A DNA stretch of 64,000 bases from a virus: positions 1-64,000 of IMG/VR virus record IMGVR_UViG_3300035169_000077; one strand, written 5' to 3'. Positions 1,290-3,984 of this stretch are shown one piece after another (the stretch's first letter is position 1; each line of letters opens with the position of its first letter). Both the position numbers and the translations under genes were made by a program. Under the pieces are notes generated by a model. It made no database searches. It saw only the letters and a program-made list of their open reading frames with translations, and was not told the DNA's origin.

Positions 1290-3677
1290 GTGGCCGCCGA
1301 CACGGAGTGGGTTGAGTACGCGGCCCGCGAGTTCGAGGTTGTGCAGCCGCCGGAGTGGCGCGAGATCGCCCGGCCGGAGCAGCTGCCCCCGGATGGCAAG
1401 TGGCTGACGTGGGCGTTCATCGCCGGGCGCGGCGCGGGCAAGACGCGCTCCGCGGCCGAGTGGGCGCATGCACGGGCGATGGAAAACCCTGGCTGCCGGA
1501 TCGCCCTCGTTGGCCGTACCCCGGCCGACGTGCGCGATGTCATGATCGAGGGCGAGTCGGGGATCCTCGCGATCGCGGGCGGCGACAAGCCCGTCTACCA
1601 GTCGACCAAGCGGCGGCTGACGTGGCCGAACGGGTCGATGGCTTATGCCTATTCTGCCGAGGTCCCCCCGCAGCTGCGAGGCCCCCAGCACCACTACGCC
1701 TGGGCTGACGAGGCCGCCAGCTGGACGGACGCCCGCAAGGGCGACGTGCTGGACACGGCGTGGAACAACCTCATGCTCGGCCTGCGGCTCGGCGCTGACC
1801 CGCGGTGCGTGGTCACGACGACGCCGAAGCCGAACGCGCTCACCAAGACGATCCTCGGCCGGAAGTCGACCGTCGTCACCAAGGGCACGACGTACGACAA
1901 CCTGGCGAACCTGGCCCCGTCGTTCCGCGAGGAAGTCCTCGCCGCCTACGAGGGCACCCGCATCGGCCGGCAGGAACTGCTCGGCGAGATGCTCGAAGAC
2001 GTCGAGGGCGCGCTGTGGACGCTCGCGCTGATCGACCAGGCCAGGGTCAAGGGCCACCCGGACCTGGCCCGCGTCGTCGTCGCGGTCGACCCCTCCGGCG
2101 GCGAAGGCCCGGACTCTGACGAGCAGGGCATCATCGTGGCAGGCCTCGGGGTCGACGCCGAGGTGTACATCCTGGCGGACAGGTCATGCAAGCTGTCCCC
2201 GCACGGCTGGGCGTCGCGGGCCGTGGCCGCTTACCGGGAGTTCGCCGCTGACCGGATCGTCGCCGAGGTGAACTACGGCGGCGCGATGGTGGCGTCAACG
2301 ATCGGGATGGCCGACTCCGCAGTTCCGGTGAAGGTGATCACCGCCTCGCGGGGAAAGGTGCAGCGGGCCGAGCCGGTCTCCCTGGCATACGAGCAGGGCC
2401 GCGTGCACCATGTCGGGCCGCTGGCCAAGCTCGAAGACCAGATGACCACCTGGACCCCGCTGGACGGGACGAGTCCAGACCGGCTGGACGCCTGCATCGC
2501 AGCCGGGACGCCAGTGCTCACGGCGCGCGGCGAGGTGCCGATTGAGGATGTCGTAACCGGAGACCTGGCGTGGACGCGCCAGGGCTGGAAGCCGGTCACG
2601 GCGGCTAGGCGCACCCGCAGGGACGCTGAGGTACTGACGGCCGTGCTGTCGTCCGGCAGGACACTGACGGCCACCCCGGACCACCGGGTATGGGTTGAGG
2701 GCATCGGCTGGACCCGGATGGATGCCCTCGTGTGGGCTGATAGACTTTCAGGGTGGAAGAATCCCCGGTCGCAGTCACCTACAGAGGCGTCACGTACAAG
2801 CGCAACCCCAGCGCTAAGCAGCGTGCCCACCGGGTCTACTACAACGCACCGAGAGGCAGCGGGCGCAGTTCGCTGCACCGTGACACCTGGCGCGACAACC
2901 ACCCCGGCGAGGACATCCCCGCAGGCTGGCACGTCCACCACAAGGACCACGACCCGTTCAACAACGACCCCGGCAACCTCGTCCTCCGGTCACCCAAGGG
3001 CCATGCCGCCGAGCACCCCGAAGTCGCCGGGATGCCAGCCGATCACCTCGCCGCCATACGCCCCCTCGCCGCCGACTGGCACGCAAGCGCCGAGGGCCGC
3101 GAGTGGCACGCCGAGCACGGCAAGCGCACCTGGGAAGACCGCGAGCCCGTGGCCCGCAAGGCATGCGGCCAGTGCGGCGAGCAGTTCGACGCGTGGTTCG
3201 ACCGGGCCGAGTACTGCTCTCGCACCTGCATCAACCGCGCCACTGAGCACAGGCTCCGCCGCAGTGCCGTCTGCGTCATCTGCGGATCGGAGTACGAGCA
3301 GGACCGCAAGGCCCGAGGTCAGACCTGCTCCCGCAAGTGTGGCGCGGCTCTGCGCAAGCAGCGAGCGGCGTGACGTCTACGACCTGACGGTGGCCGATGC
3401 CCATGAGTTCGTCGCGGCCGGGGTCATCGTCCACAACTGCGTCTGGGCGATCACCGAATTGACCGGGAACTTCGGAGCGGACGCCTGGCTGGCATGGGGG
3501 CGACGCAAGGCGCAGGAAGCCGCTGCGGCGCGAGGTGAAGCCCCCGCCCCCGCTCCTCGCCCGCCAGTGGCCCAGCCCGAGGCACCCCCCGAGCCGGAGC
3601 ATGTCCCGTTGGACCCGGTGACGGCACGGAAGCTGGCAAGGGACGCGGCGTTCAGGTCATCAGGTAACGGACGGTAG
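1290..3677 (+). CDS. terL: terminase large subunit containing an intein
   Basis: DNA-packaging motor of 795 codons, about 480 residues after protein splicing. The ATPase Walker A motif is GRGAGKTR (residues 46-53) and Walker B is HYAWADEA (D140-E141). The RNase H-like nuclease shows VVVAVDPSGG (D267), a VAEVN segment (E326) and the SPDRLDA segment (D397/D400). An intein starts at C402 and ends H715-N716, with C717 as the +1 residue, so splicing restores RLDA-CVWAITEL, the conserved nuclease motif. The tail is Pro/Ala/Glu-rich. Start is GTG. Intein insertion at the catalytic nuclease motif is typical, because that DNA is highly conserved. Confidence 0.93.
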   Translation: MAADTEWVEYAAREFEVVQPPEWREIARPEQLPPDGKWLTWAFIAGRGAGKTRSAAEWAHARAMENPGCRIALVGRTPADVRDVMIEGESGILAIAGGDKPVYQSTKRRLTWPNGSMAYAYSAEVPPQLRGPQHHYAWADEAASWTDARKGDVLDTAWNNLMLGLRLGADPRCVVTTTPKPNALTKTILGRKSTVVTKGTTYDNLANLAPSFREEVLAAYEGTRIGRQELLGEMLEDVEGALWTLALIDQARVKGHPDLARVVVAVDPSGGEGPDSDEQGIIVAGLGVDAEVYILADRSCKLSPHGWASRAVAAYREFAADRIVAEVNYGGAMVASTIGMADSAVPVKVITASRGKVQRAEPVSLAYEQGRVHHVGPLAKLEDQMTTWTPLDGTSPDRLDACIAAGTPVLTARGEVPIEDVVTGDLAWTRQGWKPVTAARRTRRDAEVLTAVLSSGRTLTATPDHRVWVEGIGWTRMDALVWADRLSGWKNPRSQSPTEASRTSATPALSSVPTGSTTTHREAAGAVRCTVTPGATTTPARTSPQAGTSTTRTTTRSTTTPATSSSGHPRAMPPSTPKSPGCQPITSPPYAPSPPTGTQAPRAASGTPSTASAPGKTASPWPARHAASAASSSTRGSTGPSTALAPASTAPLSTGSAAVPSASSADRSTSRTARPEVRPAPASVARLCASSERRDVYDLTVADAHEFVAAGVIVHNCVWAITELTGNFGADAWLAWGRRKAQEAAAARGEAPAPAPRPPVAQPEAPPEPEHVPLDPVTARKLARDAAFRSSGNGR
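2493..3437 (+). other. intein in the large terminase, with an interrupted linker
   Basis: The element is 315 codons long. The N-terminal splicing block begins C402 (CIAAGTPVLTARGEV) and contains block B with T462-P-D-H465. The C-terminal block is DVYDLTVADAHEFVAAGV followed by IVHN, and then Cys+1. Only about 115 residues resemble splicing domain. The roughly 205 codons between them give a Ser/Thr/Ala/Pro-rich sequence without hydrophobic core, because this DNA codes for an HNH endonuclease in another frame. The intein frame has no stop codon across that stretch, so a full precursor can be made. Confidence 0.9.
2753..3373 (+). CDS. HNH homing endonuclease nested out of frame in the intein
   Basis: A 206-residue protein read in a different frame from the terminase. 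The HNH core is HVHHKDHDPFNNDPGNL (residues 60-76), followed by two zinc-binding CxxC pairs (C138/C141 with C155/C159, and C174/C177 with C192/C196). It fills exactly the gap between intein blocks B and F, where in-frame homing endonucleases normally sit. It has its own GTG start and TGA stop. A TAGACT hexamer (2741-2746) lies 6 nt before the GTG, so it may be made from its own leaderless message. The protein should cut intein-free terminase genes and drive homing. Confidence 0.85.
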   Translation: MEESPVAVTYRGVTYKRNPSAKQRAHRVYYNAPRGSGRSSLHRDTWRDNHPGEDIPAGWHVHHKDHDPFNNDPGNLVLRSPKGHAAEHPEVAGMPADHLAAIRPLAADWHASAEGREWHAEHGKRTWEDREPVARKACGQCGEQFDAWFDRAEYCSRTCINRATEHRLRRSAVCVICGSEYEQDRKARGQTCSRKCGAALRKQRAA

Positions 3678-3750
3678 CCGGAGACCGGCGCTGGTGCCAG
3701 GATTCGCGGGCTGAGACCCCAACACTGGCCGGTAACTTCACTGAGCGTGC

Positions 3751-3954
3751 TCACCGCCTGATCCTCCGGTCCCGCTCCCGCTCCGTCACGAGCTCCACCT
3801 GAGCGACCGGCTCCCCGTCGCCGAGCCACCACGTGACGCCCCAGGCGATCATCGGCTCCGCGCGGGGGAAGACAACCGCGTCGCCCGCTCGCGGCACCGC
3901 GTCAAGGTCGAACCCCCCGAGGCTGGCCACGCCGCGCCTGAACTCGACTCTCAC
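3751..3954 (-). CDS. small conserved phage protein, unknown function
   Basis: A 67-residue protein starting at GTG 3954. It has alternating hydrophobic and charged stretches (GDAVVFPRAEP, WGVTWWLGDGEP) that suggest a small beta-rich fold, and a basic C terminus. It runs against the late genes. GATCAT (3961-3966, minus strand) precedes the GTG by 6 nt and there is no ribosome site, as in other isolated genes here. A longer reading to 4092 is possible but would overlap the + strand gene. No family name can be given. Confidence 0.6.
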   Translation of the reverse strand: MRVEFRRGVASLGGFDLDAVPRAGDAVVFPRAEPMIAWGVTWWLGDGEPVAQVELVTERERDRRIRR

Positions 3955-3984
3955 CCGCCCATGATCCCATCCGAGAGGGGAGCC

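Follow-up and report, generated by a model that had tools for sequence, protein, structure and literature searches.

A putative HNH homing endonuclease gene nested out of frame within terminase inteins

INTRODUCTION

The endonuclease-containing inteins of the terminase large subunit (TerL) of mycobacteriophages (Kelley 2016, PMC5050341) and the HNH_3 intein of cyanophage CL131 (PMC6293099) encode their nuclease in the intein's own frame, within one polypeptide. The locus described here raises the question of how an intein and an endonuclease can share one stretch of DNA in two different reading frames, and whether such a layout is an accident of one record or a working arrangement. The locus lies in the first 64 kb of a 98.7-kb IMG/VR virus record (IMGVR_UViG_3300035169_000077), and this whole stretch of 64,000 nucleotides is called the window below. 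A first-pass annotation of the window had placed a terminase intein at 2493-3437 and, in the gap between its splicing blocks B and F, an HNH gene at 2753-3373 with its own GTG and TGA in another frame. Our analysis reproduced this layout to the base.

RESULTS

The intein and the HNH gene in the window

The features on which the argument rests are as follows.

1290-2492, + strand: N-extein, part of the terL ORF
1290-3677, + strand: terL ORF (terminase large subunit), interrupted by the intein; Pfam Terminase_6N 6e-19, Terminase_6C 2.6e-13
2493-2756, + strand: intein N half with Cys1 and block B TPDH; Hint_2 2.9e-7, TIGR01445 1.9e-6; pLDDT about 97
2738-2746, + strand: extended -10-like TGA-TAGACT (TAGACT at 2741-2746), 6 nt ahead of the GTG; codon resampling gives P = 0.008 (TANNNT) and 0.0005 (TGnTANNNT)
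2753-3373, + strand: HNH endonuclease gene, 206 aa, GTG start, TGA at 3371-3373; HNH_3 5.8e-8, phrog_15471 1.7e-23; pLDDT 94
2757-3341, + strand: linker in the intein frame, Ser/Thr/Pro-rich in translation, disordered, no stop; pLDDT mostly <55, no secondary structure; dN/dS about 1 in relatives
2900-3007, + strand: HNH catalytic core (HVHHKDHDPFNN...NL..H) in the HNH frame; Pfam HNH_3 residues 50 to 85; residues invariant in alignments A8 and A11
3164-3340, + strand: two CxxC...CxxxC zinc-ribbon-like modules in the HNH frame; Cys 138/141/155/159 and 174/177/192/196 invariant or nearly so
3342-3437, + strand: intein C half with block F DVYDL and block G VIVHN; Intein_splicing 3.9e-10, TIGR01443 5.9e-5; pLDDT 93 to 97
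3438-3674, + strand: C-extein, part of the terL ORF

Domain searches with Pfam and NCBIfam detected both the N-terminal and the C-terminal intein blocks in the TerL frame, and HNH_3 in the other frame. The intein has the residues of class 1, with Cys1 at 2493-2495, the block B TxxH motif (TPDH), a terminal HN at 3432-3437 whose Asn is encoded at 3435-3437, and Cys+1 at 3438-3440. AlphaFold modeled its residues 1 to 85 and 281 to 315 as a HINT fold (pLDDT about 97) and gave no structure to the 195-residue linker between these halves. The best Foldseek match to the intein model was the gp41-1 intein, followed by other mini-inteins. A blastn search with the window intein gave no match among phages, and a comparison with the low-complexity linker as query returned noise only. 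The intein sits in the TerL nuclease domain, at the region of catalytic motif III, whereas the mycobacteriophage TerL inteins are in the ATPase domain.

The HNH open reading frame is offset by +2 from TerL, that is, in the -1 frame, and not in frame as in a canonical intein-endonuclease fusion. It fills the gap between blocks B and F: its start lies where the intein N half ends, and its stop where block F begins. The HNH (beta-beta-alpha metal) catalytic motif was found in the window protein and in 32 of 32 aligned relatives, and AlphaFold predicted a well-folded protein. Foldseek returned no significant match to the HNH model, and an IMG/VR scan with the window HNH as a single protein had no match, so that alignments were needed to find relatives.

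HNH genes are often found in group I introns, and the nearest solved HNH enzyme, I-HmuI, comes from such an intron, which would allow the element to be an RNA intron with incidental intein-like ends. We give this next to no credence, given that no Rfam intron family matched in the window or in seven loci, that the intein catalytic residues are complete with a predicted HINT fold, and that the host frame is kept open, which is unnecessary for an RNA intron.

The first-pass annotation had emphasized that the intein frame stays open across the HNH gene as a Ser/Thr/Pro-rich linker. There is indeed no stop, but in this GC-rich sequence (70% GC) the openness is weak evidence alone: synonymous shuffling left the frame open often (P = 0.39 to 0.45). 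Since the open linker of the window was unsurprising by itself, relatives were sought.

Relatives of the nested locus

A TerL search led to a distant locus (L023) whose TerL is 40% identical to that of the window, with an intein N half at 61% and an HNH protein at approximately 49% identity. Its frame offset is that of the window, and its HNH start and stop fall at matching positions. Three GenBank phages, Acinetobacter phage Highwayman, Tetrasphaera phage TJE1, and Rhodobacteraceae phage MD07, carry the nested layout under the label "terminase large subunit", with no separate annotation of the HNH in any of them.

We then surveyed IMG/VR and GTDB genomes by profile scans, using HMMs derived from the nested loci to classify the matches. 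Two alignments, A4 (genome contigs) and A12 (viral contigs), lacked any conserved stretch that could be used. Among 170 distinct loci of the HNH family, 116 were nested in a continuous intein frame, 15 were split, 31 had no detectable intein, and 8 were partial; intein halves stood on both sides of the HNH in 131. The frame relation in related inteins, which the first-pass annotation had proposed as a check, was close to uniform: 115 of the 116 nested loci shared the offset of the window, and one (L162) used the other sense frame. In-frame homologues and compensating indels, either of which would have spoken against the layout, were looked for as well, and none of the 116 was in frame. The HNH motif was intact in 114 of the 116, and the intein catalytic residues were likewise retained (Cys1 in 113/115, terminal Asn in 114/115). 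Nested loci ranged from 0.30 to 0.70 in GC content, and contigs assigned to Thermoplasmatales, Methanomethylophilaceae, Methanimicrococcus (in the split form), Bacteroides, and Patescibacteria were included. By these sequence comparisons, the layout is a widespread family and not one case.

Reading-frame constraint and selection

These relatives, many of them in AT-rich genomes, provide the decisive support for the layout. Synonymous shuffling of HNH codons predicts 15.4 open intein frames among the 116 loci; 115 were open at the offset of the window and L162 at its own, and at 38 loci the open frame was individually improbable (P < 0.01). Because an open frame is part of the definition of "nested", the fair figure is 116 open frames among the 131 loci flanked by both intein halves. 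The corresponding frame was open in only 1 of 15 split loci and 1 of 23 free-standing genes, in which mean stop counts equaled expectation.

The two frames also differed in their substitutions. Across 14 pairs, dN/dS was 0.08 to 0.30 in the HNH frame, where measurable, and 0.77 to 1.68 in the linker frame. The HNH frame is under purifying selection and the overlapping linker frame is approximately neutral; thus, selection maintains the HNH protein, and the linker may vary provided that no stop appears.

Seen in one record only, such a layout would suggest an artifact or a decaying element, in which compensating indels had put an originally in-frame HNH out of frame, and the neutral evolution of the linker frame would fit that account. 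The relatives refute it, leaving it a negligible likelihood: the offset is kept in 115 of 116 loci, which come from independent assemblies and from GenBank phages, the HNH is under purifying selection, and the HNH family contains no in-frame homologue. As for why one offset is nearly universal, the +1 arrangement would be expected to produce 16.6 stops and the -1 arrangement 2.2, so that stop avoidance is a possible and simple explanation; descent from one ancestor is the alternative.

Start signals of the HNH gene

The first-pass annotation had taken TAGACT, 6 nt before the GTG, as a -10-like element that would permit independent expression. The box is where it was described, the same spacing is enriched family-wide, and the sequence signals for an HNH gene with its own start and an internal promoter-like element hold. 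The codons that spell the box in the window, GAT AGA CTT, are rare here, with AGA used for 0 of 91 Arg residues in TerL and the next large ORF. A consensus promoter scan gave no match and no -35 box.

Across the family, 93 of 106 loci start with ATG. Anti-Shine-Dalgarno energy at HNH starts was -5.5 versus -3.2 kcal/mol (p = 5e-9), and 56% of loci have a clear Shine-Dalgarno sequence. Among the 47 loci that lack one, TANNNT stands exactly 6 nt before the start in 17, compared with 0 to 6 at each of the other spacings; in 43 testable loci 15 such boxes were observed, where resampling the codons of the intein frame predicts 4.6 (p = 7e-12). Free-standing relatives without a Shine-Dalgarno sequence likewise have TANNNT at this spacing in 9 of 13 cases, and a minority of relatives have neither signal. 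From these patterns, the window HNH is probably translated from a leaderless mRNA driven by an extended -10 promoter located where the intein N half ends, and the gene is apparently expressed independently from its own promoter.

The -1 offset of nearly all loci would also suit programmed -1 frameshifting, by which the HNH would be synthesized fused to TerL and the intein N half, with its own start unused. Several observations make this very improbable. In 75% of loci the HNH frame has a stop no more than 10 codons upstream of the start; in many the distance is at most 1 codon, and in the window it is 4 codons, so there is little room for a frameshift fusion. Moreover, an ATG or GTG start is conserved with a Shine-Dalgarno sequence or a -10 box ahead of it, and the offset can be explained by stop avoidance.

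Distribution and mobility

The distribution of the element is sporadic and points to horizontal spread: it is missing from close TerL relatives and present in divergent TerL proteins. The TerL search returned 20 relatives with an empty site, with N-exteins 67 to 85% identical to that of the window and mostly reading ...SPDRLDA|LVWA... at the insertion point. The residue after the intein, encoded at 3438-3440, is Cys in the window and Leu in close intein-less TerL relatives, and the +1 residue was therefore changed or brought with the element. The HNH and intein are better conserved than their host, being approximately 36% identical across pairs in which TerL is 16% identical, and in some pairs the identities are 0.54 for HNH, 0.50 for intein, and 0.14 for TerL. 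The Mantel correlation between HNH and intein was weak (0.22) and not above that between HNH and TerL (0.31), so that HNH and intein may also recombine.

On the HNH tree, which came from a quick search and has many weak branches, the nested, split, and free-standing states need 22 changes, with free genes spread through the nested clades. Branches with good support require 5 changes of the free state and 2 of the split state. The closest HNH to that of the window (L095, 62 to 65% identity) is free-standing behind an intein-less TerL, and it retains both the -10 box and SDALVWDDILHKW, a sequence similar to the last part of the intein N half.

The HNH could instead assist the terminase in packaging, its place inside terL serving co-expression and not homing. 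Such a role has been proposed for HNH proteins beside terminase genes, such as HK97 gp74 (cited in PMC10448857), and free-standing relatives in our set adjoin terL in several phages. We nevertheless consider this unlikely, as the HNH is missing from close TerL relatives, occupies several TerL sites, crosses between very different terminases, and interchanges often among states on the HNH tree.

The element indeed occurs at more than one position in TerL. An intein-selected sample yielded 126-aa mini-inteins without HNH at a site in the TerL ATPase domain (L290, L291, and L293), and at this same site two other loci (L286 and L287) have an intein with an out-of-frame HNH, the shared halves being 79 to 85% identical. 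In the 15 split loci (L086, which is Lactobacillus phage CL2, and L163, L175, L182, L184-L187, L193, L196, L240, L244, L252, L263, and L264), stops interrupt the intein frame, and the intein C half with the TerL C end forms a separate ORF, which in several of these loci has its own start and Shine-Dalgarno sequence. In the CL2 record, the intein C half and TerL C end are unannotated.

Other nested nucleases

Comparable layouts were observed with other nucleases and host genes. One locus (L296) has an intein in a Mu-F-like head protein (ORF 1933-3984) and an opposite-strand ORF at 3118-3846 (- strand) that matches MTES_1575/DUF559 nucleases (6e-11); the intein frame is open across it, making this an antisense nested endonuclease. 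In L298 (3029-3739, + strand), and likewise in L300, a family A DNA polymerase ORF contains an intein-like insert, and an HNH ORF (phrog_3377, 8e-19) occupies the other sense frame of this insert; the intein C half is only weakly detected (E 0.055). A further ORF (L288, 106-4179) combines a LAGLIDADG domain and an intein with an out-of-frame HNH in one long reading frame.

DISCUSSION

The sequence-testable points of the first-pass interpretation are supported by these comparisons, and we consider the most probable reading, at roughly 0.85, to be a composite mobile element in which a splicing-competent class 1 intein shelters an independently expressed HNH homing endonuclease in the -1 frame. 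From the architecture, conservation, selection pattern, and start signals, we infer how splicing, expression, cutting, and homing would proceed. Translation of terL would read the shared DNA as a disordered linker, and the HINT halves would fold and splice the intein out to restore TerL. The HNH protein would be made from its own start, on a leaderless mRNA in the window and from an internal Shine-Dalgarno site in many relatives. The nuclease could then cut intein-less terL alleles in mixed infections, and repair would copy the whole intein across. The shared DNA would be under two demands, to encode a functional HNH protein and to remain free of stops, with changes allowed, in the intein frame.

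Four known systems resemble parts of this element. Like the endonuclease-containing inteins of mycobacteriophages and cyanophage CL131, it has class 1 HINT halves with an endonuclease between blocks B and F, and TerL as host gene; unlike theirs, its endonuclease is out of frame. The closest report in the literature covered is ShiLan, an out-of-frame HNH insertion in phage methylases with no splicing domain (PMC11855218). As in the window, a GTG-start HNH lies in another frame of a phage gene, the host frame is open, and the distribution is disjunct, and a leaderless start has been proposed for ShiLan. The present family differs: complete HINT halves surround the HNH, which takes the canonical endonuclease position, the hosts are terminases, and there is -10 box and Shine-Dalgarno evidence. 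Fractured genes that carry split inteins and an endonuclease between the halves, reportedly described in Dassa 2009, and the AceL NrdHF split intein with its intervening endonuclease (PMC7891396) share with our family an independently translated endonuclease gene between intein halves, and the 15 split loci have that form. The window and 115 other loci, by contrast, keep the intein as one continuous polypeptide. Finally, collaborative homing and free-standing HNH genes near terL are known (PMC10448857), and members of our family stand beside terL in BP10, PhiSTP1, SN1, Exiguobacterium phage 23, and others; unlike the nested HNH, these genes lie outside any intein and have stops in the corresponding frame. 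A full-text literature search, which most subscription papers fall outside, found no out-of-frame endonuclease inside an intein, and priority is not certain.

Whether overlapping, independently expressed endonuclease genes are a general mobility route for phage inteins is, in our judgment, an evenly balanced matter. Such a route would take in at least three nuclease families, both sense frames and the opposite strand, and several host genes, and it would bridge mini-, contiguous, and split inteins and free-standing nucleases, with stops in the linker as a simple origin of natural split inteins.

Endonuclease inteins are described as fusions of splicing and cutting in one polypeptide, and the nested family separates the two by double coding. 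The timing and amount of nuclease would thereby be separable from terminase expression, and the linker need only avoid stops. The disordered linkers of approximately 195 residues suggest that inteins of the nested family tolerate large inserts. The family offers more than 100 natural overlapping gene pairs with measurable constraint and indicates where homing endonucleases can hide from annotation. It also makes two questions testable, namely, by what route inteins acquire endonucleases and from what natural split inteins arise.
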